Of a DNA stretch of 64,000 nucleotides, positions 25,505-43,144 are shown piece after piece. The notes below the pieces were generated by a model. It did no database searches, was not told where the DNA came from, and saw only the letters and a list, made by a program, of their open reading frames with translations. A program made the translations under genes and the position numbers. How positions within the stretch are numbered: the stretch's first letter is position 1; each line of letters begins with the position of its first letter. Origin of the DNA: Candidatus Velthaea versatilis (GTDB taxonomy: Bacteria > Vulcanimicrobiota > Vulcanimicrobiia > Vulcanimicrobiales > Vulcanimicrobiaceae); contig PLAE01000162.1 of assembly GCA_003134035.1 (NCBI GenBank), positions 1 to 64,000 of the forward strand, given 5' to 3'.

Positions 25505-25530
25505 CTCGTACGAGTATCTCACACGAATAC
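25505..25530 (+). promoter_or_regulatory. Tandem 13-bp direct repeat, copy A
   Basis: Two adjacent 13-bp units, CTCGTACGAGTAT and CTCACACGAATAC, follow the consensus seen at four other places (29196, 34983, 35543, 43119). It lies 90 bp upstream of the ATG of the secreted TPR protein at 25621. I read it as the binding site of a regulator that recognises direct repeats. Confidence 0.6.
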
Positions 25531-25620
25531 AATTGGCGCTGGTGCTGCGTGCGATCTCGCGTGAAGATCGTATTGCCGGCCCAGATCCGGCATCCATGCT
25601 CTTGCGCTCACGAGGAAATC

Positions 25621-27219
25621 ATGCGCTTTTTTCTCTCCACGGCCTTTGCCGCGGTCGCTGCGGCAACGCTTTCCGCTTCGCCCCTTGCTGCCCAAGCGTC
25701 GGGCGGGGTACGCATCATCGTCCAGGCGTGGCAACCGGCGAATCCGGCCACGCAAAACAACAACGTCGTTCTCGATCGTCCGGGCTTGCTCGAAGACGGG
25801 CTCAACGCCGGATGGGCCAAGGCCCGCACGCCGATCTGCGACGCGCTCGAACAGGAACTCGGGAAGCCCGATCGGGTCGCCCCCGGATTCTCACTTTACA
25901 ACATGGACTGTAAGATGGCCCAGAGCGGCTCGTTGAACGTGACCGGCGCGCAGAACAACGTCGTCAACATCCAATACCGCTTGCCGGGCAACATGTTCCG
26001 TGCAACGTCCACGCAACCAAGTGTCGCGGGCTCGTACGCCGACCCGTGCGCGTTCTTCTACTATGACCTCGTGGCGACGACGAGTATTCACCTCGATACG
26101 CTCGACGTCGATGCGTTCAGCGTCGCAACCCAAAACGTCTCGCGACCCGATTCGTGCAATGCCGCGGGCGACGTCGCGAAGTTCGTGGCAACGACGATTC
26201 ACTTTTTCGGCGGTCCCGACTTTCTTGCCCTAGCACAAAATACGCTCACGCAGCAGCAAAACGTTATGACCGGCGACCTCAATGCGGCGGTGAACACGTT
26301 CGTCGGACCGTTGCGGTCTTACAGCGGGCAGTACGCGAAGCAGTCGAGTTGGGTGCGTCACGGCGACCTCTATTTCGCCTTCGCGCCGAGTTACGTGCCG
26401 CAGCCGCTCTCCGCATCGCTCAACGGTGCGATCGTGATGCCCAAGGCCCGCTGGCACGATCCCGCTCCGGATTGTTCGGTCTTCCGCATCACCGGGAACG
26501 TCCAAACCGGTCCGGCGCCGATCCTCGATCCCGAAACGCTGCGCGTCGGAGTCGCGCCGCACACCGCTGTGGGAGCGGCCAGCGCAAGCGGCGCCGCCGC
26601 TGATGCCGGCGACCGGTACGTCTGCACCTACGCGATGAGCGGCCTGCCCCCCGCGGTTCCGGTCACGTTTCAAGCCCTCGGGCGTCCCAACAATATCGCC
26701 AACAACTACCTCACCCTCATCGGCCCGGATGGTTGGTCGGGGACCGACACCCTCCCGAGCAGTGCGCCCAAGCGGGACTTCCTGGCCGAGGAAACATCGA
26801 CGGCGAACTTGCACGTTAATCAGCAAGTGCCGCAGGTTTTCGTCAAACCGGGTGGTCCGGTGGAAACGAACGATCCTCGGCAATTGTTCCAATCCGGCAC
26901 ATCGCTCCAGCGCGTCGCGCTCAACCCGCAGCCGCTGCCGCCCGCAGGCGTCAACGCGCTGATTTCAAGCGGCAACGCGGCCTTCGCGCGGAACGATTTC
27001 TCCACCGCGGCAACGCTCTTCGGACGCGCCGTCGCGACGAACCGTGCCGACCCGATCGCCTTGCACAACCTCGCGCTCGCGCACGCCCGGCTCGGCAACA
27101 CGTCGCTCGCGCAGAACGAGCTGCGCACGGCGCAAACTCTCGCTCGCGGAGCCGGCGATATGGTCACGGCAAACGCGGCAGCGCGTTCGATCATCGTCGT
27201 GGGCGGCGGTCAGCCGTAG
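25621..27219 (+). CDS. Secreted protein with C-terminal TPR repeats, function unknown
   Basis: 532 residues from ATG 25621, which has GAGGAA upstream and begins a clean signal peptide (M-R-F-F-L-S-T-A-F-A-A-V, cleavage after L-A-A-Q-A). The long middle is beta-rich with several Cys and many Asn-Val-Thr patterns (G-A-Q-N-N-V-V-N-I-Q-Y-R-L-P-G). The last 90 residues form two to three TPR helices (A-L-I-S-S-G-N-A-A-F-A-R-N-D-F, A-L-H-N-L-A-L-A-H-A-R-L-G). It probably acts outside the cytoplasm in a protein complex. The tandem repeat operator lies upstream. Confidence 0.62.
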   Translation: MRFFLSTAFAAVAAATLSASPLAAQASGGVRIIVQAWQPANPATQNNNVVLDRPGLLEDGLNAGWAKARTPICDALEQELGKPDRVAPGFSLYNMDCKMAQSGSLNVTGAQNNVVNIQYRLPGNMFRATSTQPSVAGSYADPCAFFYYDLVATTSIHLDTLDVDAFSVATQNVSRPDSCNAAGDVAKFVATTIHFFGGPDFLALAQNTLTQQQNVMTGDLNAAVNTFVGPLRSYSGQYAKQSSWVRHGDLYFAFAPSYVPQPLSASLNGAIVMPKARWHDPAPDCSVFRITGNVQTGPAPILDPETLRVGVAPHTAVGAASASGAAADAGDRYVCTYAMSGLPPAVPVTFQALGRPNNIANNYLTLIGPDGWSGTDTLPSSAPKRDFLAEETSTANLHVNQQVPQVFVKPGGPVETNDPRQLFQSGTSLQRVALNPQPLPPAGVNALISSGNAAFARNDFSTAATLFGRAVATNRADPIALHNLALAHARLGNTSLAQNELRTAQTLARGAGDMVTANAAARSIIVVGGGQP

Positions 27220-27311
27220 CCGCCTCGACAAACTGCCTGGCGTTTTCCGGTGTTCGCCAAAAGAACCGGCACACTGCGCTCGGACCCTGCTGGAGAAAGA
27301 AGCTGTCAACT

Positions 27312-28499
27312 ATGCAAGTTCTCGAAACGTCACGCTTTCCGATCAAGGCGTGGATCGACGGCGTCGAATGCGACGATGCTACTCGCCGGCAGCTTGAAAA
27401 CATCGCGTCGTTGCCGTTCATCCACTCGCACGTCGCGGCCATGCCCGACGTGCACTTCGGTATCGGCGCGACCGTGGGTTCGGTCATTGCCACGAAGGGT
27501 GCGATCGTGCCGGCCGCCGTCGGCGTCGACATCGGCTGCGGAATGATCGCCCAGCGTACCAGTCTGTCCGAGCGGGATCTCCCGGACGATCTGCGAGCCA
27601 TGCGCTCGACGATCGAACGCACCGTGCCGGTGGGCGCCGCGGTCCACGGGCGGGTGCCGCCATCGGTCGACACCGCCTGGGACGCGCTCGCGGGCCGCTA
27701 CGACGCGATCCGGCGCAAGCACCCGAAGATCGAAACCAAGAATGCCCGCGAATCCTTGGGCACCATGGGCGGCGGTAATCACTTCTGCGAGATCACGATC
27801 GACAACGAGGGGCACGTGTGGGTTGTGCTGCATTCGGGGTCGCGCGGGCCGGGCAATCGGATCGGCACCTATTTCATCGAACGCGCGCGCAAGGAGATGG
27901 AACGCCTCGGGATCGGCCTGGCCGACCGCGATCTCGCGTACCTCACTGAGGACACAGAGTCGTTCAGTGATTACGTCGACGCCGTCGGCTGGGCGCAGGA
28001 CTACGCTGCGGCCAATCGCACGAACATGCTCGATCGCGTGCTTGCCGCTCTGCGTCATCGGTCGCTGGGCCTGCCGAGCTTCACGCTGACCGAGAAAGCC
28101 GTGCATTGTCACCATAACTACGTCGCTCGCGAACACCACTTTGGTGCCGACGTGTTCGTGACGCGCAAAGGCGCCGTGCGTGCCGGCAGCGGCCAGCTCG
28201 GCATAATCCCCGGCTCGATGGGCGCGCGATCGTTCATCGTGCGCGGGCGCGGGAACCCCGAGTCCTTCGAGTCATGCTCGCACGGTGCGGGCCGGCGTCT
28301 AGGGCGCAGCGAGGCGAAGAGGCGCCTGACCGTCGCGGACCTCGAACGTGAGACGGCGGGAATCGAGTGCCGCAAGGACGCCGGCGTCCTCGACGAAGCT
28401 CCCTCAGCGTATAAGTCGATCGATGCCGTCATGGAAGCCCAACGCGACCTCGTCGAAGTCATCTATACGATGCGTCAAGTCGTGTGCGTGAAGGGCTAG
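27312..28499 (+). CDS. rtcB: RNA-splicing ligase RtcB family protein
   Basis: 395 residues. Diagnostic motifs: M-P-D-V-H-F-G-I-G-A-T-V-G-S-V, G-V-D-I-G-C-G-M (Mn-binding Asp and Cys), G-T-M-G-G-G-N-H-F-C-E-I, L-H-S-G-S-R-G-x-G-N, C-H-H-N-Y-V and S-C-S-H-G-A-G-R with the guanylylated histidine at H324. RtcB joins 2',3'-cyclic-phosphate or 3'-phosphate RNA ends to 5'-OH ends using GTP and acts in tRNA or rRNA repair. The usual partner RtcA or archease is not next to it. It is a little shorter than the archaeal type, as for many bacterial forms. Confidence 0.95.
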   Translation: MQVLETSRFPIKAWIDGVECDDATRRQLENIASLPFIHSHVAAMPDVHFGIGATVGSVIATKGAIVPAAVGVDIGCGMIAQRTSLSERDLPDDLRAMRSTIERTVPVGAAVHGRVPPSVDTAWDALAGRYDAIRRKHPKIETKNARESLGTMGGGNHFCEITIDNEGHVWVVLHSGSRGPGNRIGTYFIERARKEMERLGIGLADRDLAYLTEDTESFSDYVDAVGWAQDYAAANRTNMLDRVLAALRHRSLGLPSFTLTEKAVHCHHNYVAREHHFGADVFVTRKGAVRAGSGQLGIIPGSMGARSFIVRGRGNPESFESCSHGAGRRLGRSEAKRRLTVADLERETAGIECRKDAGVLDEAPSAYKSIDAVMEAQRDLVEVIYTMRQVVCVKG

Positions 28500-28717
28500 A
28501 GCGCAGCGTTTACCGGGGATCGATTCGAAACCCGGTCTCCGCTCAGGGATGGCGACGTGGAACAGCTGCTCGCCAATAACGAGACGGAGGTAGGTTCGAA
28601 TGGCCCTCTTGGAGTCTTCGTTTGTCGGTCGCGGCAGCTCCGCTGCGACGTTCCACGGCGACGTGGCTCACATGCTCCGTCGCTATTGCGCTGCGCCTAG
28701 CCACGATCGACGGCATC

Positions 28718-28987
28718 TCACGCGGGCGGCTTACCCGGTATGGGGTTTTTGCGCTCGCCGCCGCCCATCCCACTGCCGCCACTTGAGGTAGTATCCAAGC
28801 TAAGATCAACTTCGCTAGCAACAAAGGCGCACAAAAGAAACGCAACCGCTCTGAACAGCCAACGCAGAACAAGCATCTCGCGGGTCTGGAGCTTGTCGGG
28901 CGGGTTGATCAGCCAAGCAAGCAAGCGCACCACTGGATACTCGCATCGAGGGTCGGGTTGAGGTGCATCTGGCGCAGAGATGTTCAT
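28718..28987 (-). CDS. Small membrane protein
   Basis: 89 residues from ATG 28987 (the longer frame to 29104 is Arg/Cys-rich and unlikely). A hydrophobic helix (V-L-R-W-L-F-R-A-V-A-F-L-L-C-A-F-V-A) in the middle is preceded by a basic, proline-containing region and followed by a Gly/Ser-rich tail. It faces away from the tandem repeat operator at 29196 and may share it. No family recognised. Confidence 0.45.
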   Translation of the reverse strand: MNISAPDAPQPDPRCEYPVVRLLAWLINPPDKLQTREMLVLRWLFRAVAFLLCAFVASEVDLSLDTTSSGGSGMGGGERKNPIPGKPPA

Positions 28988-29195
28988 ACAGCCACCGTTA
29001 TGACGAGGGTGAGATCGCGACCGTTTTTGGCACGGGCAATGGCGACGGCGGGCGCACCTGTGCGCGTTGGGCCCAGCGCGATGGCGGCGACATGTGCGAG
29101 CCATGTTGCCGTGGAGCGCGGCGGCCGATGGTCGTGCAGATTTTTCATTGCCCTACGAGTATCGCACGCTGCCCGTCGCGCGCCAAGCGTCGGAG

Positions 29196-29221
29196 CTCGC
29201 ACGATTAACTCGTACGAATAC
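29196..29221 (+). promoter_or_regulatory. Tandem 13-bp direct repeat, copy B
   Basis: Units CTCGCACGATTAA and CTCGTACGAATAC lie side by side between the divergent genes 28987 (-) and 29353 (+). The upstream flank GCGCCAAGCG is shared with copy C at 34983, so these two intergenic regions are related. Confidence 0.58.
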
Positions 29222-29352
29222 GCTTAACGGCAGGACCCTTCGAGCCGTTCGCACGCGATCGGGTCCGCCTGTCACCCCGCGGCGCACCGCGACCGCGCCG
29301 CTTCGTCCGTCTGAAAGACAGTCGCGACCGTTTCCAGGGTGCCGGAGGTGCC

Positions 29353-29652
29353 GTGCAGATCGAAGTCTCAGATCTCGGAAACATCGCCGGACTCGCCACG
29401 CTCGCCGACGCGGCAGCGAACTTCGGCGAATCCCAAGACGATGAAGGCTATGAGAAAAATGTCGACGTTGCCGGCCAGAAAGTTCACGTGTCTTGGAAGA
29501 ACGCGACCAAACACAGCGAGCTTCTCAGCCTGGTCGACAGCCGCTTCGCCGTCGGCGTAACTGGCGACGGTGTCGACGTGGATGTCGCGCTCAAGGCGCT
29601 CCAAACAATCGACCTCGGCAAATTGCGCAGCCTGGCAGCGCAGACGAACTGA
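29353..29652 (+). CDS. Small conserved-looking protein, function unknown
   Basis: 99 residues from GTG 29353 with GGAGG five bases before. Residues form an acidic, soluble protein: E-V-S-D-L-G-N-I-A-G-L, then D-D-E-G-Y-E-K-N-V-D-V-A-G-Q-K-V-H-V-S-W, and G-V-D-V-D-V-A-L-K-A-L-Q. The layout resembles the C-terminal domain of larger membrane-linked proteins of unknown function, where a Y-E-K motif and V-x-G-x-G-V-D-x-x-x-L recur. Here it is free-standing. Confidence 0.6.
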   Translation: MQIEVSDLGNIAGLATLADAAANFGESQDDEGYEKNVDVAGQKVHVSWKNATKHSELLSLVDSRFAVGVTGDGVDVDVALKALQTIDLGKLRSLAAQTN

Positions 29653-29906
29653 ACGTGCATTGTTGCAGCTGGCCTTCATCGCGCAAAAAGACTATGCGAT
29701 TAGTCTCTTATCTCAGAGCGTCCGTCATGACCTCGATCGCAATGGCTGATCGAATGAGGATATCCGTGGCGAGTTGCGCGCCCTATTTGTATGGCGTCAC
29801 CGTGGGGGGCCTGCGCAGAAAATTCCAGCGCGCCTTCCGCCGACCACCGGCGAAATTACCTCCACCGTTTATGCACGACGGTGGCAATGCGGGGGCAGGG
29901 ACGACG

Positions 29907-32375
29907 TCACGCCCGAGAAGCTTCTGTCGACTCGGCCGGTTCGAGGGCTTCGGCGATGGCCGCTTCGATCGACAAGGCTGCGCCGTTGTCGAGGTTTTGT
30001 CGTGTCGCCGTCATGCCGATCCCCGCAGTGATTTGCGCGAGCGTTCGATCGTAGAGCGACTGCTCGGTGAATTGGCGTTCGAGTCCAAAGACACGGTACA
30101 AGCGGTTTGAGGCACCCGCCAAGCGCGCCGCGCGAACGTAGGAGTTGCGGCGGGCGGCAACACTGCTGAGGTGCTCCAGACAGTGCATCGCGACGCGGGT
30201 TTCCCCGCCGCCGGCAAGGAGTTCGAGCGCTTCGCACGCGGCCCGATGGGCCTGCCCGTCATCCTCGACGCCGAGAGCGTAGGCCGCGACGTTCACCAGC
30301 GTCCCGGCGAGATTCGAGCGGTCGCGCTTCTCGCGAATGATCGCGAGGACTTGCAGCCCGCAGGCGAGCGCCGCGGCATAATTGCCCGTCGCATAATGCG
30401 TTTCGGCCAGGCAAGCCGTCGGGACCATCGCATCCGTGTCGCCGGCGTCGCGGTACGCGCGAATCGCGTCTTCGAGCGCTGCGAAGCGCTCTGGGGCGCG
30501 CTCGATTGGGATAATCTGCGCATACGCGCTGAGCGCGTCCGCGAGGCGAAAGGCGTCCCGCTGCGCGCGTGCCACCGCGACGGCTTGTTCGCCGACGGTC
30601 CGCGCTTCGTCGGCCCGACCCAGCAGATAGAGGCAGTAGACTTGCCGTGTGAGCGCCCAGCAGACGTCGGACTGCCGATCGACGGTTTGATAAAGCGCAG
30701 CCGCGCGGATCGCGGCGTCGTAGGCGTCTTTGAGTTGGCCAAATTGAAAATAAAAATGGTGCAACGCCATGACGAGCCGCCCGATAACGGCGGGTTCGGC
30801 GTTCGGCGCTTCGGCCAAGGCGCGTTCCGCCCAGCGCGCGCCTTCACGGCTGAGCGCGGTTTGCTGGTACGCCCAGCCGAGCGCGCCGGCAAGTTCGGCA
30901 CCGAGCAGAATGTCGTTGCGCTGCCCGAGTGCCCATTCCAGCGCGGCCCGAAAGTTATCGATTTCCGCTCCGACGAGAGCAAAAAACTCGCGCCCCCCTA
31001 CGCGGCGATGACTGACGTCAGCCGCTTTGGCCCGGGCACAATAGTACTCCGCGAAGCGGCGGGCGCAGCTGTCGTACTTTCCGCTTGCGCGCAGGCGGTC
31101 GAGTGCGAAGGCGCGCATCGTCTCGAGCAGGCGGTAGCGCAGCCGGCCGTCATCCTCTTCGACAATCGCCACGAGCGACTTCGCGACGAGCGCGGCTAGC
31201 GTTTCGCGAAATGTCCGTGCGTCGTTCGCGCAGATTTCCGCAGCGGCATCGAGCGTAAAGGGAGCGGCGAAAAGCCCGAGCCGCGCGAAGCTCTCGCGTT
31301 CGCCGGCGGTCAGCAACTCGTAGCTCCAATCGAGCGCGCTGCGCAGCGTGTGCTGACGCGGTCCCGCTCGTCGGCGCCCGCCTCCCAGCAAACTGAATCG
31401 CTCGTCGAGACCCGTCACGATCGTTTCGAGCGAGAGGTCGCGTGCGCGGCCCGCGGCGAGTTCGAGCGCCAGCGGCAGCCCGTCGAGCCGCCTACAAATG
31501 GTCGCGGCCAGCGCGCGGTCGTCGGCCGAAATCTGCGCGAAGCGCGTGAAGTCCGCATCGATGAGCCGATCCAACAGCAAATCGAGCGCCGTTCCAGTCG
31601 CTTCGCGGAACTCCGTCGGCAGCGGCGCGACGCGAAACAAGCATTCGCCGTCGATGCGCAACGCCTCACGCGTCGTCGCGATCAACACGATCCCGGGGCA
31701 GCTGCCGACCAGCGCTTCGGCGATGCGTGCACACTCGTCCAATACGTGCTCACAATTATCGAGGACGATGACGAGCCGCTTGGACCCGATCGCCCGGGCC
31801 AGGGTGACGGTGATCGGTTCATTTGCGCGTTCGCTAACGCTCAGCACGCGCGCCATTGCCGAAGCCACCAGACCCGGCGACCCGAGCGGCGCCAACTCGA
31901 CGAGCCAAACGCCATCCGGAAACTCGTTTTTCTCCACGAGCCGGTGCGCGAGTTCGAGGGCCAGCCGCGTTTTTCCAACGCCGCCCGAGCCCAAGAGCGT
32001 GATCAAGCGCCGCACGGCGATCAGGCCTTCGAGTTGCGCCAGATCCGTCTCGTGCCCGTGAAACGAAGTGGGTGAATACGGGAGATTGTGGCGCGGCGAT
32101 GGCGCGCCCGCGGAGGCGAGCGTCGACATCCGCACGCCGCGACGACGTCCCGCCGTCGCGGCTTGCTCGAGCTGCGCCCGCTGAGAAGCGTCCAGCCGCA
32201 GCGCGTCGGAGAGCAGCGAGAGTGTTGCCTGTTGGGGACCGCGCCGCGCGCTGCGTTCCAAGCTGCTGATCGCGCCCGGACTCAGCCGAGCGCGTTCGGC
32301 CAGCGCTTCTTGCGAGAGCCCGGCGGCGCACCGAAGCTCGCGGAGAAGATCGCCGAAGGCACGATCGTTTACCAC
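29907..32375 (-). CDS. XRE-type HTH / STAND ATPase / TPR protein (copy 3)
   Basis: 822 residues from GTG 32375. The frame is open to 33317, but the first 314 codons of that frame are the antisense shadow of the relic at 32457. Same domains as copies 1 and 2: XRE domain (N-D-R-A-F-G-D-L-L-R-E-L-R), Walker A G-S-G-G-V-G-K-T, Walker B V-I-V-L-D-N-C-E-H, G-L-P-L-A-L-E-L-A-A-G-R, D-W-S-Y-E-L-L, long TPR-like tail. Nearly every block matches copy 2, 9 kb upstream in the same orientation, which points to duplication and divergence. Role: regulator or sensor of unknown trigger. Confidence 0.88.
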   Translation of the reverse strand: MVNDRAFGDLLRELRCAAGLSQEALAERARLSPGAISSLERSARRGPQQATLSLLSDALRLDASQRAQLEQAATAGRRRGVRMSTLASAGAPSPRHNLPYSPTSFHGHETDLAQLEGLIAVRRLITLLGSGGVGKTRLALELAHRLVEKNEFPDGVWLVELAPLGSPGLVASAMARVLSVSERANEPITVTLARAIGSKRLVIVLDNCEHVLDECARIAEALVGSCPGIVLIATTREALRIDGECLFRVAPLPTEFREATGTALDLLLDRLIDADFTRFAQISADDRALAATICRRLDGLPLALELAAGRARDLSLETIVTGLDERFSLLGGGRRRAGPRQHTLRSALDWSYELLTAGERESFARLGLFAAPFTLDAAAEICANDARTFRETLAALVAKSLVAIVEEDDGRLRYRLLETMRAFALDRLRASGKYDSCARRFAEYYCARAKAADVSHRRVGGREFFALVGAEIDNFRAALEWALGQRNDILLGAELAGALGWAYQQTALSREGARWAERALAEAPNAEPAVIGRLVMALHHFYFQFGQLKDAYDAAIRAAALYQTVDRQSDVCWALTRQVYCLYLLGRADEARTVGEQAVAVARAQRDAFRLADALSAYAQIIPIERAPERFAALEDAIRAYRDAGDTDAMVPTACLAETHYATGNYAAALACGLQVLAIIREKRDRSNLAGTLVNVAAYALGVEDDGQAHRAACEALELLAGGGETRVAMHCLEHLSSVAARRNSYVRAARLAGASNRLYRVFGLERQFTEQSLYDRTLAQITAGIGMTATRQNLDNGAALSIEAAIAEALEPAESTEASRA

Positions 32376-32456
32376 AAGGCTCGCGATCTTACTACGACCC
32401 TTCGCCGACTTCCTCGGCGGCAGTAACCAGCCCTCCGGATCGAAGGCGAACGGGTC

Positions 32457-33190
32457 GTGCATGTGCAGCCCCTCGCCTATGCCGATGCCGCCGCGGAGAG
32501 CCCGGCGCTCACTCTGCTCATCGATCGTCTCGTCGACGCCGATTACCGGCGCTACAGCGAGTTGCGCGCGCAGGACCGCGTGCTGGCGGCGCGGATCTGC
32601 CAGCGTCTCGATGGGCTTCCGCTCGCGCTCGAGCTCGCCGCTGCACGCGCGCGCGATCTGCCGTTGGCGCACATTGTCGCCGGCCTCGACGAACGCTTTA
32701 CGCTGCTGGGGGCTGGGCAGCGAACGGCCGACCGGCGCCATCATACGCTGCGCGCCATGATCGATTGGAGCTACGCGCTCCTCACTTCGGCGGAGCGTGA
32801 GCTCTTTGCGCGCCTGAGTCTCTTCGCCGGAAGCTTTACGCTGCAGGCGGCCGTCGCCGTCTGCACGCCGGAGGATCCGGCCGGCGGCCGCGCGGCGCTG
32901 CAATCGCTGGTGGCCAAGTCGCTCGTGACGATGGTCGAAGACCGCGCGGGCGAAGCGCGTTACCGGCTTCTTGAATCGCTGCGTGCGTACGCGCTCGACC
33001 GCTTGCGCGAAAGCGGCACCTACGACGCCGGTATGCGGCGCTTCGCGACATATTTCGCGGAACTGGCCATGTCGTGCGATGCCCGCTCCGGGCACATGCC
33101 CAACGGTGCGCTCTTCGCGCTCGTGGAGCCGGAGATCGCAAACTTTCGTGCGGCACTGGAGTGGTCGCTCGCAGAAGGCCACGATCCGGC
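32457..33190 (+). pseudogene. Relic of a fourth STAND protein (middle part only)
   Basis: The frame matches STAND residues from just after the sensor region (A-L-T-L-L-I-D-R-L-V-D-A-D-Y-R-R-Y) through G-L-P-L-A-L-E-L-A-A-A-R-A-R-D-L, D-W-S-Y-A-L-L and F-R-A-A-L-E-W-S-L. The HTH, Walker A and B on the N side and the TPR tail on the C side are missing. The sequence is followed by a join to unrelated codons near 33190-33230. It lies head-to-head with copy 3. It should not bind ATP and is probably non-functional. Confidence 0.75.
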
Positions 33191-33553
33191 GCTCCGGCAG
33201 CATTTGCGGCACGATGCAGAGCGCTCCCCGAAGCAAAGCCGGTGCGCACAGCCTCGTGGCCGTGCAAAACGACACCGTCGCAACGCAAATCCCCGTTACG
33301 TTCGTGCCGCCGATCATCGTTCGTTAAAACGGGACCGACCGGCTGTCCGGGGACAGCCGCCTCTCCTGGTGTTTGTCAGCGCCGCCTCGGGCGTAAAGAA
33401 CCAGGTCCGCGATCGCCACAGCGATCGTTTCCTCGTGAACCTCGAGGCCAACGAACTTGAGGCTGTAGCCAACGCCGTTGAGCATACTGTCGCACTTTAT
33501 GTCCGGCTCCTTTCGCGTGTAGCTCTGCTTCGCGGTCTTGCCGCCCGTGCAAC

Positions 33554-34662: not shown

Positions 34663-34982
34663 GAAGTACCTTTCGCAAAGTGAGCGTTGCCGCACGTGAT
34701 CGCGCCGCCGACGGTCCCAACCCCCTGAGCGCTTGCGCAACTCCATCGCGGCTGCGCAAGCCCGATCCGAGCAAGACGGCGTCCGCCGTAGACATGACGA
34801 TGGCGGCGACCGCTGCAAATCGGCGACCGACGAGCGCCGGGGCTGGGCTATTTCGAACGCGAGATCGAGGCCGGCTTCGGCACGGGCGACGGCCATGACG
34901 AGCGTACTCAAGCGATAGTCCTGCTGGTCGTTCATCGCATTACGATCATCGCACGCCGCGGATCGTGCGCCAAGCGACGGAA
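34663..34982. other. Intergenic stretch upstream of the SUKH gene
   Basis: About 320 bp with only unlikely frames. The right part resembles the 28980-29195 region in its last 50 bases before the tandem repeat. Confidence 0.3.
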
Positions 34983-35008
34983 CTCGCACGATTAGCTCCT
35001 ACAAATGC
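34983..35008 (+). promoter_or_regulatory. Tandem 13-bp direct repeat, copy C
   Basis: Units CTCGCACGATTAG and CTCCTACAAATGC; the second unit is the most divergent of the set. It lies 49 bp upstream of the frameshifted gene at 35058. Confidence 0.5.
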
Positions 35009-35057
35009 GCCGGGTGGCACGATCCAGTCGGGACGCTGTCGGCGTCGCTGTAATCGT

Positions 35058-35398
35058 ATGTCGCTGAGCGACCGGACCGACGTCGCGGAGCACGAGTCCG
35101 GCTCGCACACGCTCGTTTTCGCCGCGATCGTTACGGACCTGGCGCGAAGCACGGATGACATCGATTTCGCGGCCGCTTTACTCGGCGACGACGGAACGGT
35201 AGTCGCCGGCCGGCACCAGTCGGGTAAGTGGACGCAGCAGCCGCAACGGCTGATGCGCCTGGTTATCGGGTTTCCGTGGACTGGTACTTCACGCCGGCGG
35301 AACTCTTTCTCATCGCAATCGGCGCCGCGGACCAAACCGCGTTGCGTCTCGCGATCCGGGTCAAAGCGGGCCAGAACGGCGTCTGCTCGTACGATTAA
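35058..35398 (+). pseudogene. Hypothetical protein gene broken by a frameshift
   Basis: From ATG 35058 the frame reads a plausible start (V-A-E-H-E-S-G-S-H-T-L-V-F-A-A-I-V-T-D-L-A) up to about H-Q-S-G-K-W-T near 35230. A plausible ending lies in a different frame (Y-R-V-S-V-D-W-Y-F-T-P-A-E-L-F-L-I-A-I-G and A-D-Q-T-A-L-R-L-A-I-R-V-K, TAA at 35396-35398). The two parts join somewhere in 35225-35265. Together they would make about 112 residues. It may be a broken gene or carry a sequence error. No family recognised. Confidence 0.45.
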
Positions 35399-35542
35399 GC
35401 CAGAGCCGACAAACATCGCGCGGCGCTCGCTGCATCGAAATAGACCCCATCGAGTCGACGCTGAGAGCGCCGCGATGACAGAGAAGGCGACGCGTGATCG
35501 ATCATTAGGTTGGCCCACCTGACGCGGGCCGGCACCGGGCGA

Positions 35543-35606
35543 CTCACACAAGTAATTGGCACAAGTAGTACCGAGTCTGGACCAGGCAATCCCGGCCTGG
35601 GATACT
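35543..35606 (+). promoter_or_regulatory. Tandem 13-bp repeat (copy D) with downstream promoter
   Basis: Units CTCACACAAGTAA (35543-35555) and TTGGCACAAGTAG (35556-35568). Ten bases further on, TGGACC (35578-35583) and GATACT (35601-35606), spaced 17 bp, look like -35 and -10 boxes. The repeat would then lie about -70 to -45 from the start of transcription, the usual place for an activator. The same arrangement is kept at 43119-43178. Confidence 0.6.
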
Positions 35607-35624
35607 GCGGACATGGAGGTTTCT

Positions 35625-36161
35625 ATGTTTCACGCACTCCGCGCACTCGCTGCGCTCGTCCTCATTTCGGCAGTCGCCGGCCACGCAGGCCCGGTCAACG
35701 CCGACGCAATGTCGGATCAGAAGAAAGCGTTTAAGGCGACCGGCGTCAACCCGCTCGGCGCCAAACCGTCCGAATGCACCATTTTCACAAGGAGCGATGC
35801 CGAACGCGTCTTCCACGCGCCGGTCGTGTACTTCGATTCGGACTTTACCGAATATTCCAAGACGCCGTGCGCGTGGACCCTTCGTCCGAAGGATTGGGAT
35901 TTCGCAGTCTTGGTTTCACGTGGCAAAGAGCCATTTATTCCTCCCCAGGCCGAAAACGACGGCGGTCTCCAAACGAGCCAAGTTCGCCACGTCAAGGGCG
36001 TCGGTCAGGACGCGTACACCTCGTACCTTCATTCCAGCACCGGCGGTATGTACGAAGCCATGGTTCTTACATCCAAAGGTGTCACGAACGTTATGCTGGG
36101 CGAAAAAGCCGGCAACGCGGACACCACCCTCGCGATCGCGCGCATAACCGTGGACCGCTAG
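35625..36161 (+). CDS. Small secreted protein, paralogue 1 of 3
   Basis: 178 residues from ATG 35625, with GGAGG six bases before. The signal peptide (A-L-R-A-L-A-A-L-V-L-I-S-A-V-A-G) is followed by a mature domain with family marks C-T-I-F-T-R-S-D-A-E-R-V-F-H-A-P-V-V, a second Cys (C-A-W), H-V-K-G-V-G-Q-D-A-Y-T-S-Y and A-I-A-R-I-T-V-D-R at the end. Two cysteines suggest one disulfide. The pattern loosely recalls DUF3558-type lipoproteins. Close relatives lie at 36478 and 43201. Confidence 0.72.
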   Translation: MFHALRALAALVLISAVAGHAGPVNADAMSDQKKAFKATGVNPLGAKPSECTIFTRSDAERVFHAPVVYFDSDFTEYSKTPCAWTLRPKDWDFAVLVSRGKEPFIPPQAENDGGLQTSQVRHVKGVGQDAYTSYLHSSTGGMYEAMVLTSKGVTNVMLGEKAGNADTTLAIARITVDR

Positions 36162-36195
36162 CGAAACCGACGCACCCTCCGGCCGACCCCGGAGG

Positions 36196-36310
36196 GATTT
36201 GATTCTACGAGCCCCAGCGTCGCGATGACAGCGAAGGCGGTGTGGCGAGGCTGGTGGACGATGATCATAGCGCTTTTCCGATGAGTTATTGATCGTCGGC
36301 TCGCATATCG
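36196..36310 (-). pseudogene. Relic of the 5' end of a divergent secreted-protein gene
   Basis: About 115 bp resemble the first 100 bp of the gene that starts at 43050 (-) plus its upstream edge (shared blocks such as AGCCCCAGCGTCGCGATGAC and AAGGCGGTGTGGCG). Here no open frame continues leftward. The relic lies upstream of paralogue 2 just as the intact gene lies upstream of paralogue 3, so the divergent pair was duplicated and this half decayed. A more worn copy is at about 35465-35530. Confidence 0.6.
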
Positions 36311-36477
36311 TTCGCGAACCGTTTAGCACGACTCAAGTGAAATTCGCGCACGCATTCTCGGGGTTGGACGCGGCGCTTCTTCCCTGAGAGAATGCGGTCA
36401 CGAACGGTCGTATGGGACCAAACCCGCCGATACAATGAACCGCTGGGCATAATACTGGGAAAACGTAGGAGAATCTC

Positions 36478-36984
36478 ATGTCAATCATCCGACAAACGCT
36501 CGGCGCGCTCATCGTTGCGGTGGCGTCCACCGCGCAAGCTAACGCTGATGAGGGCTTCGATCAGGAGCGCATCTACAAGGCTCTTGGCGTCAATATCTCG
36601 CACATCGCCGGCAAGCAATGCACCATCTTTACCAAGACCGACGCCGAGAAAGAGCTGTTCGGGCCGGTCGTGCGTGTCACGGCAGGGCCGGCAAAGTGGA
36701 TGTGCGCGTACGAACTCGCAAAGCCGGAGACGGCTGGAATCAGGGTTTGGCGTGAGCCGCGCTCGGACTGGCAGCCGCCGCGTCTCAACAGCTACAACAG
36801 CCACATCACCCACGTGAAAGGTGTCGGTCAAGACGCGTATACGTACTACTTCTATGTTCAAGAGGGCGGCGTATCGGTGGCCGATGTGGTCACGTCCAAA
36901 GGCGTAACGAGGGTCGTGGGGCGGGAGGCATTCGGCGGTGAGGTGACTCTGCTCAGAATTGCACGAATGATTATGAATCGGTGA
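36478..36984 (+). CDS. Small secreted protein, paralogue 2 of 3
   Basis: 168 residues from ATG 36478 with AGGAG upstream. Signal peptide L-G-A-L-I-V-A-V-A-S-T-A-Q-A-N-A. Mature part keeps Q-C-T-I-F-T-K-T-D-A-E-K-E-L-F-G-P-V-V, M-C-A-Y-E-L, H-V-K-G-V-G-Q-D-A-Y-T-Y-Y, D-V-V-T-S-K-G-V-T and A-R-M-I-M-N-R. It is the most diverged of the three and lacks a clear tandem repeat operator. Confidence 0.72.
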   Translation: MSIIRQTLGALIVAVASTAQANADEGFDQERIYKALGVNISHIAGKQCTIFTKTDAEKELFGPVVRVTAGPAKWMCAYELAKPETAGIRVWREPRSDWQPPRLNSYNSHITHVKGVGQDAYTYYFYVQEGGVSVADVVTSKGVTRVVGREAFGGEVTLLRIARMIMNR

Positions 36985-37006
36985 AGCTCTTACCAGATGT
37001 GGCGTA

Positions 37007-37026
37007 AGGCCCCGGCTTTTCGGCCT
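37007..37026. terminator. Possible bidirectional terminator between convergent genes
   Basis: AGGCC (37007-37011) and GGCCT (37022-37026) pair around a loop containing CTTTT. It lies in the 81 bp between the stop of paralogue 2 and the stop of the VWA gene. Confidence 0.3.
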
Positions 37027-37065
37027 GTGTGGGCGCGATGGCTATGACGCATCAACCCCGCGGTT

Positions 37066-38868
37066 TTAGGCGAAACGGAAGATCGACGCGCGGGTGGGGA
37101 ACCCGAGCGTTCGCGATTCCGGGAGCAAGATCGCACAGCGGCGGCGAGACGCGAAGCTGTCGCAGACGCCGTCGGTAATGACGAGGATCGGTCCGGCTTC
37201 GGGGAAATCAGGCGCACGTTCGAGGAGGTCGATGCCCGGCTGCATACGCGTGCCGCCGCGGCCGCGCAGCTCGATCCGATCGCCAATCGTTTCCGGCGGC
37301 AAGTAGCCGTGGTCGAATGCGGCGACGTCGCACGACACCAGCCGCACGCCGGCGACATCGCGCGCGACGGCAAACGATGCGATCGCGCCGAGCGCGTGAC
37401 CGAGGATTTTCCGGTCCATCGAACCCGAGGTGTCGACGACCACGCCGAAGGTATGCGTGCGCTCGTCGTGGGGACGCACGTAGCGCGGGAGCGGGATATC
37501 GCTTACGCCGCCTTGACGGCGGCTCGCGCGCACGTACGTACGGCGCAGCTCGCGACTGGGGAGAACGCCGTCGATCCAGCGCGCGAGCGCAACATCCCAC
37601 GGAATCGGCGGCTGGGCGAGCGCGTGGATCTCTTCGATGAGTCCGCCGGGAAGCGTCCCCCACTTTCCGGCGAGATGAACGCGCAGCCCCTCTTGCAACG
37701 CGGTACGGTAGAACTCATCCAGCGTCACACCCTCGTCTCGCGACCACCAATTCGGCCGCTCACCGTCGAGCATATCGCGGCTGCCCTTTCCGCGCAGCGT
37801 ACCCAACCGTCGCAGGCGACGCAGATCGGTCGCGATCCGGTCGTAAACGCCCTCGCACGACAGACCCGTCAGCTCGGGATCGTAGAGAACGCCGAGCGGC
37901 ATCTTTCCGATCGCCATCTGGACGAGCCAGTCGTTGATGACGTAATCGCAAGCGACGTTCCAAAGATACGGATCTCGTCCGTTGCGGCGCAGGTCGTGAC
38001 GAAGCGCGGCGTGCAGCACCTCGTGCGCCACGACGAACCGCACTTCGGACCACCCAAGTCCGGCGGCCGGATTGATGTAGAGCTCGCGTGCGGAGACGTT
38101 GACGGCGGCGACGGCGATATTTTCGCGGCGGCAGATGTCGATGTCGTAGATGAACCGGAATCGGCTGACGACCCCCGAGAGGAGCGGAAAATAATCGATG
38201 AACCATTCCCGTGCGTCACGCACGTTTTCGGGAAGGCCGTGCGGAACGGCCAAATCCCCATGGGCCTGCTCGACCCCGCGCTCGAGTGCGCGCTGCACCG
38301 AAGCGGCGAACGCCCGCTCGAACGACGAGTATTGCCGTGAAAGCGTCCAGAACCGCTGCTGCCAACCATCATCGAGCCAAAAACATGCTTCGCTCCCCGC
38401 GATCCCGAACGATGGTAACTCGTGAAGATCCGCGCGCTCGCAGAGGACGCGGTAGAGTTCTTCGCGCGATGCGGAGACCGGCAACCCGTAGGTGGCGGGG
38501 TCGGGTAGCTCCTTGGGCGGGGTTCCCAGTGGGAGCGCGCCGAGAAACCGCGCGATCTCGATCTCGCAAGCCCGCGTCCATGCCGCACGTTCGCCACGAA
38601 ACACGAAGTGTCCGAACGCCAGGTGCAGCCAGGCGTGCGCCATCGCATAGATCCAGGTCTCGGTGTCGGCGGGATGATCGAGGTTGACGTACACCCAACC
38701 GTTCTGGCTCACCCGGCAATAGCCGTTCGCGCGTACGTTCGGGCCCACGAACTCGCATTTCGTTTCGTTCGAAAAATCGCCGAAAAGCGGGTGTGCGCGC
38801 AGCGCTTTCATCGCCGCCTCGAACGGCATCCTACCTCTGAACTCGATCGGCTTACTTGACCGCATCAT
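37066..38868 (-). CDS. VWA-like protein with metallopeptidase-like N-terminal domain (DUF2201 type)
   Basis: About 600 residues from ATG 38868 (ATG 38865 is equally possible); overlaps the end of the MoxR gene by 17 nt. The N-terminal domain carries H-E-V-L-H (H282) in a V-A-H-E-V-L-H-A-A-L-R-H context, as in predicted metallopeptidases linked to VWA domains. The C-terminal domain has the MIDAS start D-T-S-G-S-M (D479) and later G-G-T-R-M and I-T-D-G-V. MoxR-VWA pairs act as chaperone-like machines that insert metals or remodel complexes. Target unknown. Cytoplasmic; no signal peptide. Confidence 0.85.
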   Translation of the reverse strand: MMRSSKPIEFRGRMPFEAAMKALRAHPLFGDFSNETKCEFVGPNVRANGYCRVSQNGWVYVNLDHPADTETWIYAMAHAWLHLAFGHFVFRGERAAWTRACEIEIARFLGALPLGTPPKELPDPATYGLPVSASREELYRVLCERADLHELPSFGIAGSEACFWLDDGWQQRFWTLSRQYSSFERAFAASVQRALERGVEQAHGDLAVPHGLPENVRDAREWFIDYFPLLSGVVSRFRFIYDIDICRRENIAVAAVNVSARELYINPAAGLGWSEVRFVVAHEVLHAALRHDLRRNGRDPYLWNVACDYVINDWLVQMAIGKMPLGVLYDPELTGLSCEGVYDRIATDLRRLRRLGTLRGKGSRDMLDGERPNWWSRDEGVTLDEFYRTALQEGLRVHLAGKWGTLPGGLIEEIHALAQPPIPWDVALARWIDGVLPSRELRRTYVRASRRQGGVSDIPLPRYVRPHDERTHTFGVVVDTSGSMDRKILGHALGAIASFAVARDVAGVRLVSCDVAAFDHGYLPPETIGDRIELRGRGGTRMQPGIDLLERAPDFPEAGPILVITDGVCDSFASRRRCAILLPESRTLGFPTRASIFRFA

Positions 38869-39910
38869 GCCTCTGTGCGGTGACGATTCGCGGCAGATCG
38901 CGAGCAAGCTCGATGAGAAACCAGGCGGGAAGCGAGCCGCTTCCGTCGGCGACGACGACCATCTGCGCCATCTCCAAACTGATTGACGCTAAATCGCGAA
39001 TGAGGGCTTTGGCGCGAAACGCCAGCTCGGGCGTCTCGGTGACCGCTTCGGGAAGCTCTTTGACGAGCATGGCGCGGAAGGACTGCGCGAGAAAATAGAG
39101 GATGTCGCGCTCTTCGGCCTTACGCGGCCATGCGGCGTCACCCTTGACGATGGCGTGGAGCGTATAGCGATGAAGGAGCTGCCGACGAAACCCGCGGAAT
39201 TGCCCGGCGTGCTCGGCCGAGAGGCAGCCGGTCGCGAGCAGGTTGAGCGTCGCATCGTCGAGCGCTTCACCGTACTCGTGCAGCGCGTCGCTGAGCATAT
39301 GCCACGAACGCGGGCTCGAGAACGTGTCTTCGTGTTTGGGCGGCTGCGACCAGAGATGATCCGGACGCAGGCCGATGTACTCGACGACGAGCGGATGGAT
39401 ACCGGCTTGCGACGCCCAGGCTAGCCAGTCGCGATGCGATGGCGTGAGATGGATGTGGATCATGCGATTGATGAGCGCTGAGGACATCGGCTTGACGATC
39501 GCGTTGTCCTGCGCGCGGTTTCCCGCGCCGATCACGACCGACCCGCGCGGAAGCTCGTACTCGCCCAAACGCCGCTCGTGAATCAGGCTATAAAACGCTT
39601 TTTGCACCTCGTGCGAACACGCGTTGAGCTCGTCGAGGAAAAGGCAGTAGGGCTCTTCACGCGCGATCGTCGTCGGCGGCGCAAAGCGGCTTTTCCCGCC
39701 GACGATCTGCGGCACGCCGATCAAATCTTCGGGCGCGAGCTGGCTCCCCAAGAGCGAGATGCACGGAATTCCGACCGCATCGGCGAACTGCGTCACCAGC
39801 GCCGATTTCCCGATCCCCGGCGCTCCCCAGATGAAGACCGGGCGCACCGGTGCGATATGGAGCAAGAACTCCGTTAGTCGCGCTGGTGTGAGCGTGATCC
39901 CCGGATTCAT
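38852..39910 (-). CDS. MoxR-family AAA+ ATPase
   Basis: 352 residues from ATG 39910, chosen over the longer open frame because the AAA+ fold starts here. Walker A G-A-P-G-I-G-K-S (29-36), Walker B C-L-F-L-D-E-L-N (D93/E94), sensor I G-N-R and arginine-finger region R-M-I-H-I. It ends overlapping the VWA gene. It would drive the VWA protein with ATP. Its ATG overlaps the stop of a 70-codon frame upstream (ATGA). Confidence 0.88.
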   Translation of the reverse strand: MNPGITLTPARLTEFLLHIAPVRPVFIWGAPGIGKSALVTQFADAVGIPCISLLGSQLAPEDLIGVPQIVGGKSRFAPPTTIAREEPYCLFLDELNACSHEVQKAFYSLIHERRLGEYELPRGSVVIGAGNRAQDNAIVKPMSSALINRMIHIHLTPSHRDWLAWASQAGIHPLVVEYIGLRPDHLWSQPPKHEDTFSSPRSWHMLSDALHEYGEALDDATLNLLATGCLSAEHAGQFRGFRRQLLHRYTLHAIVKGDAAWPRKAEERDILYFLAQSFRAMLVKELPEAVTETPELAFRAKALIRDLASISLEMAQMVVVADGSGSLPAWFLIELARDLPRIVTAQRHDAVK

Positions 39911-40119
39911 CGGCAGCCTGGTTTCGCCGGACAGCTCGCGAGAATTGCATCCGCGACTAGCCGCGCCGGGACAATGAATGCGTATTCTGCTTTTACGCCC
40001 GCGCCGCTCGTCTGCGGGAATACCTGGTGCATGTGACCCTCCGTCGTCATAGTCGCAAGATCGGCGCGGGCCGCGCCTAATACGACGATCGCGCCGGCCG
40101 CTCGGAGACGCCACTTCAT
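39907..40119 (-). CDS. Possible small exported protein coupled to the MoxR gene
   Basis: 70 residues from ATG 40119, beginning with a basic hydrophobic stretch (M-K-W-R-L-R-A-A-G-A-I-V-V-L-G-A-A-R-A). Its TGA overlaps the MoxR start by 4 nt, and it begins 52 bp after the secreted-protein gene upstream on the same strand. The ribosome site is weak and there is no family; coding is uncertain. Confidence 0.35.
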   Translation of the reverse strand: MKWRLRAAGAIVVLGAARADLATMTTEGHMHQVFPQTSGAGVKAEYAFIVPARLVADAILASCPAKPGCR

Positions 40120-40171
40120 TCTTGGTTCATTGCTGGGCCGCGGGCGGCGCCGATCCGACGAGGGCGTTCAT

Positions 40172-41374
40172 CTAGATCTGCCGATAGCCATCCGGTATCT
40201 CGAATATCCCGCTGGGCGGAGTCGCGTCGGTGCGCAGGTTTCCACGCTCGATGACGAGCGTATAGCGCTCGGAGCCGGCGCTCGTTGTACGCTGGATCGC
40301 GTTTGCCTGATACATGAGTAATTGGTCGGCGGGGATCTTCGTGCCGGTTGCGATGACGGCACCGCTGGGGGCGCACGAGTCGCGGACGTCGGACGGCGCG
40401 AACGGCGACGAATTCGCCGCGGTCGACGCGATCCGGATCGGCGCGAAATACTCGACGCGATCGGAGGTGACGGTGGCTTGCGTACAGGCGCCGGCGCTCG
40501 CGGGCACGTTCATGACGACGTGGGTGTGGAAACCCGTCGCGGGCATTTGGCCCAGCGTCGCCGCGGGAAGCGGTTCGACCCGACTCGTCAGTGCCGGATT
40601 TCCGGTTGCGGAAGTGGGCTGGGACATGACCGATGCGGATCGCGAGAGAGACGGATCGTACGCAGTGACGCGCACGGTGCGGTTCCCATCGTCGATCGCA
40701 TACGTTTTACCGACGTCCGGCGCGAAGACGATCGCGACGTGTTGATCGGGATCGTCGATACGCACGCGTCCGGTGCTCGCAATCGTATAGGTTCGCAGCG
40801 ACCCGCGAGCGTACTGATCCTGCCCTTGGGCGGGCACGCCGGCAGGCGTGCCCGCGGGGGCGCCGGCGCTCGCCGCGTGTGGATATCGTGCTGCGGTCTG
40901 CGCTTGCGCGGCGAGATATCCGGAAAGCATCTGCGCGCCGCTGGGCGATACGTCCGGAAGTACGTACGTTTGAACGAGCGCGTCGAGCCGACCCTGGCCC
41001 GCGAGCCCCAGCGCACTCGCGACGGGCGCGAGGGTGGCGGCGTCCGAGGCGATGTGCAAGGTCTGACCGACCTGGCCGCTCGCCCCGACGATGCTCACCG
41101 CGTTGTCGAGTTGCGTTCCCGCGACGCTCAATCCGCGCAACGCCCCATCGAGGAATCCGCGTTTGCGCGGGGGCGCGCCGACGTGCGCGATTTGGCGCAG
41201 ACTCTGATCGAAGGCACCGGGCGGCGGAACGTCGCCGCTGGTATAGACGTGATCGATCTCGTCGAATGTGACGATCGCCGGCGTCGCTACGGGGTCCTCG
41301 GCGCGCGCCGCGCTCGCTGCGGCTAGGGCGGCGATCGTCACGGCGGCGATCGCCGTTCTCATCGTGCGGCTCAT
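40172..41374 (-). CDS. Hypothetical secreted protein
   Basis: 400 residues from ATG 41374, which overlaps the stop of the gene upstream (ATGA). A signal peptide (M-R-T-A-I-A-A-V-T-I-A-A-L-A-A-A-S-A-A-R-A) is followed by a low-complexity Ala/Gly/Pro region near residues 180-205 and a C-terminal half rich in strands (H-T-H-V-V-M-N-V-P-A-S-A-G-A-C, Y-T-L-V-I-E-R-G-N). Two cysteines may form a disulfide. No family recognised. It is co-transcribed with the larger secreted protein at 41371-43050. Confidence 0.62.
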   Translation of the reverse strand: MSRTMRTAIAAVTIAALAAASAARAEDPVATPAIVTFDEIDHVYTSGDVPPPGAFDQSLRQIAHVGAPPRKRGFLDGALRGLSVAGTQLDNAVSIVGASGQVGQTLHIASDAATLAPVASALGLAGQGRLDALVQTYVLPDVSPSGAQMLSGYLAAQAQTAARYPHAASAGAPAGTPAGVPAQGQDQYARGSLRTYTIASTGRVRIDDPDQHVAIVFAPDVGKTYAIDDGNRTVRVTAYDPSLSRSASVMSQPTSATGNPALTSRVEPLPAATLGQMPATGFHTHVVMNVPASAGACTQATVTSDRVEYFAPIRIASTAANSSPFAPSDVRDSCAPSGAVIATGTKIPADQLLMYQANAIQRTTSAGSERYTLVIERGNLRTDATPPSGIFEIPDGYRQI

Positions 41375-43050
41375 CGGTCGTAGTACACGAGATCGAGCTG
41401 CGGGTTGCTGTAGACGGTTTCGCACTGGGCGTTCATGAAAGCGTCGAGTCGTTCGTTATCGTTGCGGATGACGAATCCATAATTGAGGCCACCCGCCATG
41501 ATCGCAGCGACCTGTTTCGTGACGTCCGCACTCACGGTGGGACCGGTATCGGTTAATTGCGCGGGGGCGTCGCTGAAGTTTCCCTCGATCCAAGCTGCGG
41601 CGTCGTCCTTCCACCAAAATTCGGTCCCGCTCCCGACCGTGGTCGCGCATGAATGATTGTTGCCCGCACCGTACGATGACTGGATCGTCAAGTGCAGCTG
41701 CGCGGAGACCAAGCGTTTGTTGCGCAACGCGTCCGCGCCCACATCGAAGGCGACGGCATACCGGCGGATTTTGTTACGCCAACTATCGCCCAAAATGTTC
41801 TGATTCGCCCCGTAGCTATAGCCGACGACGGGCCCGTTCGGGATAGAGACGTCTGCAGGATACCCACCGTGCTCACGGTCCTGCCATGCCCCTCGGTCGT
41901 ACATCGCGTCGAGCGTTCGCGTCACCGTGGCCTCTCGAGCACAGTAAGCCGGCCCAGCCAGCGATTCGTTCGATCCACGGGTCGCGGTGACGACGTAGCA
42001 CTGCGGGATCGGACCCGACGCGACCGGCGGCAGGTTCGCGAGCGTCCGCGCCCGACCGCTCACGGTCGCGATGGCCGGACCGCGCTCGACGCCGGCGAGC
42101 GCGTAGAGGCGATAACCGTCGACGGATGCGTCAGCGGGGGCATCCCAGATAAGCACGAGATTCCCACCCGAGATCATCGATTGACATGAAACGACGCCGC
42201 CGATTTGGCCGCCGAATTGAGAGGAGGCGTGCAGGTGCGTTTCGCAGTCGCCGACGTTGCTAGCGGCGCGCAGGCCTTGGGGAACGCCGATGGGCACCAC
42301 GGCGAGGTTGGGCTGGACGAGCGCAGCGAGGGGCGGGCTCGGCTTCGCCACGGTAAACGGAACGATAGGCGCGGTGATGTTCGTCGTTGGGCGCGCGGGA
42401 TTGGCCGTCGCAATCGAAGCGGGCGCGGCGGGATTTGCCGTGACAAGCGCAGCGGGCGCCGATCCACCGAATAGCTTTTGTGCTTGCGATCCGAGAAGCG
42501 GTTGCGTCGGCGCGAGCGACGGCCCCGGCGCCTTGGTCTGGCTGGACGCTTTGGGATTGCCCAACGCCGTCGCCTGTGCGCAGAACGCGGCGGGAATCGT
42601 GGCCGATACGTTCGCGACCGAGGACGTCAGCCGCGTATGCGGCGACAGCGGATCGGACAGGTACACGCCAAAGGCGTGGTCGCCGGCGACGGCGGCGGGG
42701 TTCTTGCTCGGGTCGAAACCGGGGTCGAGGGAGATTGGTACGTCGATCGAGCCGGAGCCGTGCGCGGCGAGTTGTGGCAACTGCGCGGACCCGGCGAGTT
42801 CGTGCGCCGTGTCGAGCACCCGAATGTTCGTCGGCGACGAGGGCGCGTTGCCGTGATTGTCGGCCCGAATGTGGACGGTCGCGATCGGGAACTGCAGGTC
42901 GCAGCGCGCGGCCAGCGTTACCGTCGGCACGGAGAACGACATCGACGCGCCCTCCGGGCGGCCGGCCGATCCGGCAGAGAGATTTGATGCGACGAGCCCC
43001 AGCGTCGCGATGACGCAGAAGGCGGTGTGGCGCGGCGGGTGGGCGATCAT
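41371..43050 (-). CDS. Secreted protein with fibronectin-III-like and DNRLRE-like domains
   Basis: 559 residues from ATG 43050. Signal peptide F-C-V-I-A-T-L-G-L-V-A-S-N-L-S-A-G. Then an immunoglobulin-like domain, a long Ala/Pro linker (residues about 170-250), a fibronectin-III-like segment (L-V-L-I-W-D-A-P-A-D-A-S-V-D-G-Y-R-L-Y) and a C-terminal domain resembling DNRLRE/carbohydrate-binding modules (A-Q-L-H-L-T-I-Q-S-S, D-V-T-K-Q-V-A-A-I-M, N-Y-G-F-V-I-R-N-D-N-E). It is probably an extracellular binding or surface protein. Divergent from paralogue 3, with the tandem repeat operator between them. Confidence 0.66.
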   Translation of the reverse strand: MIAHPPRHTAFCVIATLGLVASNLSAGSAGRPEGASMSFSVPTVTLAARCDLQFPIATVHIRADNHGNAPSSPTNIRVLDTAHELAGSAQLPQLAAHGSGSIDVPISLDPGFDPSKNPAAVAGDHAFGVYLSDPLSPHTRLTSSVANVSATIPAAFCAQATALGNPKASSQTKAPGPSLAPTQPLLGSQAQKLFGGSAPAALVTANPAAPASIATANPARPTTNITAPIVPFTVAKPSPPLAALVQPNLAVVPIGVPQGLRAASNVGDCETHLHASSQFGGQIGGVVSCQSMISGGNLVLIWDAPADASVDGYRLYALAGVERGPAIATVSGRARTLANLPPVASGPIPQCYVVTATRGSNESLAGPAYCAREATVTRTLDAMYDRGAWQDREHGGYPADVSIPNGPVVGYSYGANQNILGDSWRNKIRRYAVAFDVGADALRNKRLVSAQLHLTIQSSYGAGNNHSCATTVGSGTEFWWKDDAAAWIEGNFSDAPAQLTDTGPTVSADVTKQVAAIMAGGLNYGFVIRNDNERLDAFMNAQCETVYSNPQLDLVYYDR

Positions 43051-43118
43051 CGTGGTGCGTCTCCGAACGGGTGATTGATCCTAGGCTCGCACACCGGACG
43101 CGAGCCGGCCACGCACGA

Positions 43119-43144
43119 CTCACACAACTAATTCGCACAAGTAG
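43119..43144 (+). promoter_or_regulatory. Tandem 13-bp direct repeat, copy E
   Basis: Units CTCACACAACTAA and TTCGCACAAGTAG. Downstream TGGACG and GATACT, 17 bp apart, repeat the promoter layout of copy D. It lies between the divergent genes 43050 (-) and 43201 (+). Confidence 0.6.

Follow-up and report, generated by a model that had tools for sequence, protein, structure and literature searches.

What is the role of the tandem 13-bp repeats that recur in a stretch of 64 000 nucleotides from Candidatus Velthaea versatilis (contig PLAE01000162.1, assembly GCA_003134035.1, positions 1 to 64 000; hereafter the window)? A previous sequence-only reading of this DNA had listed five copies and proposed that a single regulator might switch on a secreted set of proteins through them. 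The sites, the promoters beside them and the genes that accompany them were compared between genomes. From these comparisons, the tandem 13-mer is probably the operator of a clade of STAND activators that controls apparently exported proteins. Export was judged by eye from the first residues of each protein.

Tandem sites and promoter geometry

All five copies (A to E) were recovered, each consisting of two adjoining 13-bp units. A weight matrix built from them gave two more sites in the window, F and the weaker G, and a lone half-site is present at 35386-35398 (+). ORF stands for open reading frame.

20658-20683 (+): site G, weak tandem copy with a degenerate first unit, 37 bp from the divergent gene 20078-20620 (-)
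23920-23945 (-): site F, sixth tandem site, flanked on one side by a likely lipoprotein gene, 24087-24899 (+), and on the other by STAND2 (start 603 bp away)
25505-25530 (+): site A, tandem 13-bp candidate operator; secA starts 90 bp downstream; CTGG 8 bp after the site
29196-29221 (+): site B, 131 bp upstream of a 99-residue ORF, 29353-29652; CAGG at +9, not CTGG at +8
34983-35008 (+): site C, second unit weaker; the downstream ORF (from 35058) appears broken by eye
35543-35568 (+): site D, -35 box TGGACC, -10 box GATACT; secD 56 bp downstream
43119-43144 (+): site E, -35 box TGGACG, -10 box GATACT; secE 56 bp downstream; divergent gene 41371-43050 (-) 68 bp away

Flanks had been read as common to B and C and to D and E, with A in an unrelated context, and alignment agreed with this on each point. 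The upstream flanks of B and C are 73% identical over 60 bp (18-33% for eight unrelated pairs), the downstream flanks of D and E are 88% identical over 60 bp, and the flanks of A resemble those of no other copy. At D and E the end of the repeat is followed, as first described, by 9 bp, TGGACC or TGGACG, 17 bp and GATACT. A decayed copy of the D/E type, with a -35 box still readable, was found by eye near 36329-36396, before a third secD paralogue.

The geometry was then compared in 22 sites: seven from the window, eight from G141, four from G015 and one each from G007, G068 and G037, these genomes being relatives of the same family. Matches with two mismatches in G003, G024 and G050 and four matches in other families of the phylum were left out. 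CTGG lies exactly at +8 after the second unit in 11/22 sites, from five genomes, and the spacing to the -35 box is thus kept across them. An nAnRAT-like -10 box follows at one 17-bp spacing in 10 of these 11 (the exception is G141d). In the -10 columns aligned on CTGG (n = 11), A occurs in 10/11, then R in 11/11, A or C in 11/11 and T in 10/11; these columns were assessed against a null of independent bases, whereas D and E, and the secA orthologues, are related. The layout is that of a sigma70-type promoter with a candidate operator centred near -57. If transcription starts 7 nt 3' of the -10 hexamer, the two units would cover about -70 to -45.

Distribution of the sites

The own genome (G000; 4.74 Mb, 276 contigs) was scanned with at most three mismatches. 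Six matches were obtained, all inside the window, and the reversed control gave 0. The matches are therefore real and clustered, but the candidate regulon of the earlier reading is one local cluster and not genome-wide; outside the window, a loosened pattern gave only two 3-mismatch matches (C58 and C145). All six matches lie between likely genes in ORF lists read by eye, sites C and F overlapping mechanical ORFs that were judged doubtful. Five of the six had been used to build the pattern and only 23920 (-) is independent, so the independent test was made in the relatives.

Ninety-nine genomes of the family were scanned with a pattern loosened at one position and at most two mismatches. Eight sites were found in G141, four in G015 and one in G007, which belong to other genera of the family (Ca. 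Eremiobacterota), and six in the own genome. The other 95 relatives hold five sites, one each in G003, G024, G037, G050 and G068. Thirteen sites in three genomes against five in 95 corresponds to a Poisson probability of about 5e-21, genome sizes being ignored. Counts at three mismatches in the relatives were not used, as 60/99 genomes match and the reversed control matches in many too. A composite pattern including the -35 core was run on 84,980 species, each represented by a single genome (the own genome's records are possibly absent), and gave eight stretches. Six are apparently known sites of G141 (three), G007, G068 and G015; two, in Bacteroidota, were taken as chance matches.

Genes next to the sites

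The genes of the window that adjoin sites, or whose homologues do so in relatives, are as follows.

20078-20620 (-): 20078 gene, without a Pfam match; the clusters of G007 and G141 contain homologues
25621-27219 (+): secA, apparently exported protein of 532 residues with C-terminal TPR; conserved target
35625-36161 (+): secD, apparently exported protein of 178 residues with two conserved Cys
36478-36984 (+): third paralogue of secD, with an apparently decayed site upstream
40172-41425 (-): 40172 gene, apparently exported protein of 417 residues; homologues adjoin sites in G007 and G141, with a short match in G068
41371-43050 (-): 41371 gene, apparently exported protein of 559 residues; CBM96 is matched only weakly, below cut-off; G007, G068 and G141 have homologues on contigs that bear sites
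43201-43710 (+): secE, secD paralogue

The sequence-only reading had looked to orthologues and to a co-occurring DNA-binding regulator for confirmation, and both were found. A site stands directly 5' of secA in G141 as well as in the window and G015, where the distances are 90 and 79 bp, respectively, and genes of the 40172, 41371 or secD type adjoin sites in G007, G141, G015 and G068. secA itself, at 46% identity or more, occurs in only 4/99 family genomes, the same four that carry the STAND clade described below.

Gene order varies between these genomes. In G007 it is 41371-homologue (-), site, secD-like (+), 40172-homologue (+), secA (+), STAND (-); on contig C163 of G141 it is site, secA (+), STAND (+), 40172-homologue (-), site, 20078-like (+), 41371-like (+). 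On contig C181 of G141, site c lies between a STAND gene (-), 79 bp away, and a secD-like gene (+). Sites a and d of G141 are upstream of apparently exported proteins without a Pfam match. Some sites point away from their neighbour: those of G015 C122 and G141 C496 are 41 and 56 bp from secD-like genes, G141 site g adjoins a 41371-like gene, and window site G adjoins the 20078 gene. No convincing target gene was found for the G037, G015d and G141h sites.

The products were also compared by fold. The best Foldseek match of the secA model was SPLUNC1, a lipid-binding fold, at E 1.1e-3 (none at or below 0.001), with TPR proteins next; a second comparison covered residues 439-532 only. This gives a weak hint that secA may combine a lipid-binding fold with a TPR tail. 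The best match for secD had E 0.01, and three secD-like relatives matched DUF3558 at scores under the cut-off (E 0.07, 2e-4 and 2e-3).

The STAND regulator clade

Three complete STAND genes and the remnant of a fourth are present in the window.

17044-19500 (+): STAND1, HTH_3-NB-ARC-TPR regulator
20854-23316 (-): STAND2, HTH_3-NB-ARC-TPR regulator; start set by alignment
29907-32375 (-): STAND3, HTH_3-NB-ARC-TPR regulator, 83% identical to STAND2; start set by alignment
32430-33206 (+): remnant of a fourth STAND, corresponding to residues 234-491 of STAND1 (57% identity)

The N-terminal HTH_3 was matched in all three proteins (E 1.6e-11, 3.8e-11 and 1.2e-10), as was NB-ARC above its cut-off. 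TPR_12 was above cut-off in STAND2 and STAND3 and slightly under it in STAND1 (28.5 vs 30.1 bits). Clade members are 55-83% identical to STAND2, the best other match listed being 47%.

This clade was found in 4/99 family genomes (G000, G141, G007 and G015) and, at E 1e-150, in 4/149 genomes of a phylum sample that includes the family. The four clade genomes hold 19 of the 24 sites of the family scan. With the own genome excluded, a site with at most one mismatch occurs in 3/3 clade genomes, against 4/98 genomes overall (P 3e-5). The recognition helix reads SP[GS]AIS in 8/8 clade members, whereas SPGAIS occurs in 0/54 readable STANDs from other clades.

HTH-STAND proteins abound in the family, with a match at E 1e-60 or better in 77/99 genomes. 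Sixty upstream regions were fetched, 58 from other-clade genes (L172, incomplete, was dropped) and two from G015. Upstream of the other-clade genes no tandem site was found on either strand (0/57), with a regular expression that recovers 17/22 known sites; the lone half-site occurs in 3/57 on the gene strand and 4/57 on either strand. The idea that every STAND gene is preceded by 13-bp tandem repeats gained no support, since in other clades period 13 is without excess (at least 10/13 positions matching in 2/57; other periods, 0-7).

Further observations concern the STAND genes and their surroundings. In 32300-33206 the remnant stands head-to-head with STAND3, and the junction resembles a recombination scar. 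A short exported-looking ORF, 23313-23460 (-), ends in TAGTG at the start of STAND2, which suggests translational coupling. A more distant STAND-like stretch (about 33% identity) at 59626-60585 (-) is outside the clade. Contig C27 of G068 (L020) carries a site with 40172- and 41371-like fragments and no clade STAND, and is possibly misbinned.

Proposed mechanism and alternatives

The regulator would bind DNA through an XRE-type domain (HTH_3) at its N terminus; its NB-ARC ATPase would act as the switch and its TPR part as the sensor, which an inducer would meet. Two protomers of the oligomer formed on activation would read the pair of direct repeats, and the bound STAND would bring RNA polymerase to a sigma70-type promoter that is weak by itself (CTGGwC, 17 bp, nAnRAT). 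Such promoters would drive secA, the secD family, 40172 and 41371, perhaps in both directions at some operators. The proposal that one regulator switches on a secreted set is thus supported by the comparisons, from which we infer both binding and activation by the STAND protein.

Several observations weigh against this proposal. CTGG is absent from +8 in 11/22 sites; the set includes related members (the D/E copies and the secA orthologues), so that not all are independent, and one position of the pattern was relaxed between the two scans of the relatives. The STAND gene of G141 C163 is reached from its site only via secA. Three of the eight clade STAND genes are incomplete in the data, those of G015 C285 and C110 being cut by contig ends, and in G141 C181 residues 2-542 were matched in a frame of 601 residues; the STAND gene with the closest candidate operator may hence be truncated. 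CTGG also occurs at +5 on the reverse side in 3/22 sites (G141 b, c and f), all of which have a divergent gene at a distance of 41-212 bp, but the corresponding P of 3e-4 is uncorrected and the position was spotted post hoc among many. Two-way operators are only suggested by it; divergent genes flank several of the sites, some of which may therefore act in both directions.

Another regulator, such as a response regulator or an orphan HTH protein encoded elsewhere, could own the operator, the STAND genes being only passengers of the cluster. In favour of this, OmpR/PhoB-type regulators typically use direct repeats that lie 5' of a -35 box. A tandem site is present in the 1 kb upstream of only 2/8 STAND genes of the clade (G141 C181, 79 bp; STAND2, 603 bp), which counts against STAND control and in favour of another regulator. 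The same holds for G068, which has a good site and no clade STAND (best E 1e-80) in a bin that is 95% complete and 5% contaminated. However, among the gene families common to the fetched site-bearing contigs of at least three genomes, STAND is the only recognisable regulator, a comparison that covers the fetched stretches and that a distant gene would escape. G141 C181 also carries, about 0.9 kb further along, a gene that looks HxlR-like by eye; it is outside these shared families, and the site on that contig lies between the STAND and the secD-like gene. Ownership by another regulator is on balance unlikely.

A STAND protein might instead bind the repeats as a repressor, since the sequence leaves the sign of regulation unfixed. 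An operator upstream of an uncovered promoter with poor boxes is the usual layout for activation. Here the operator stops 9 bp upstream of the -35 hexamer and leaves the promoter uncovered, and the -35 and -10 boxes match TTGACA and TATAAT poorly; repression is therefore improbable. It is more improbable still that the repeats simply mark a duplicating or mobile element and have no regulatory role: the own-genome sites do lie within about 23 kb, alongside STAND duplicates, the STAND remnant and secD paralogues, and B/C and D/E are copies, but the flanks of A are unrelated to those of B-E, and the sites of other genera keep the promoter geometry and precede homologous genes.

If the repeats are the operator of STAND activators, then the operator, the promoter geometry and the target list allow the regulator to be tested in vitro with no need for a culture of the organism. 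They also offer a route to the targets of other STAND clades, and the abundance of HTH-STAND proteins in the family makes the assignment of an operator matter. No operator or target set of an XRE-type STAND was described in the literature searched (titles and abstract openings). We tentatively suggest that XRE-type STANDs, which are NLR-like and number several per genome in this family, could be ligand-triggered activators with one private operator per clade. This cluster would then provide the first such operator with targets, in a sense-and-export module that is patchy across genera.

Other features of the window

One tRNA was found among known RNA elements. A CdiI_2-type immunity protein was matched at 24961-25365 (+) (E 1.2e-9). 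Inside the site-bearing region are an RtcB RNA ligase gene, 27312-28499 (+), and an AAA_5 (MoxR-like) gene adjoining a DUF2201 gene, 37066-40114 (-). The gene at 6745-7332 (+), which does not resemble a regulator and is without a Pfam match, has a product with an HNH-nuclease-like stretch by eye; G015 C122 and G141 C496, both site-bearing contigs, contain stretches homologous to the gene.

Comparison with known systems

By mode of action, the closest known regulators appear by analogy to be MalT and AfsR. The DNA-binding domain of MalT is C-terminal and of the LuxR type. In the three window STANDs, no LuxR-type HTH and no SARP-type (OmpR-like plus BTAD) part was matched in Pfam at E 0.01, their HTH matches being N-terminal; a sequence comparison with solved structures gave no match for STAND2 at E 0.001.

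PMC4381067 describes MalT of E. coli as a STAND activator with a TPR-like sensor that multimerises, binds several boxes cooperatively and recruits RNA polymerase. The window regulators share with it a STAND switch and a TPR-like sensor, but they carry an N-terminal HTH_3 and their candidate site consists of two 13-bp direct repeats near -57.

AfsR and the large SARPs of Streptomyces, as described in PMC10936776, combine a DNA-binding domain, a NOD (STAND) and TPR, and recognise a pair of direct repeats at the promoter as a dimer. The same source places the 11-bp repeats of the SARP operator at a centre of -29.5, with the upstream one overlapping the -35 box; the repeats are 11 or 22 bp apart and the 3' repeat is 8 bp from the -10 box. 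The window system resembles them in its combination of a DNA-binding domain, STAND and TPR and in its two direct repeats at the promoter. It has HTH_3 and not a SARP domain, and its 13-bp repeats are entirely upstream of the -35 box; the SARP spacing does not apply, the spacing here being 13 bp and the second unit ending 32 bp before the -10 hexamer.

The system of the window thus differs from MalT and AfsR in the DNA-binding domain and its position, and in the length and placement of the repeats. Other XRE-NB-ARC-TPR proteins have the same kind of architecture, from which the window clade is set apart by its own recognition helix and by a candidate operator with targets.

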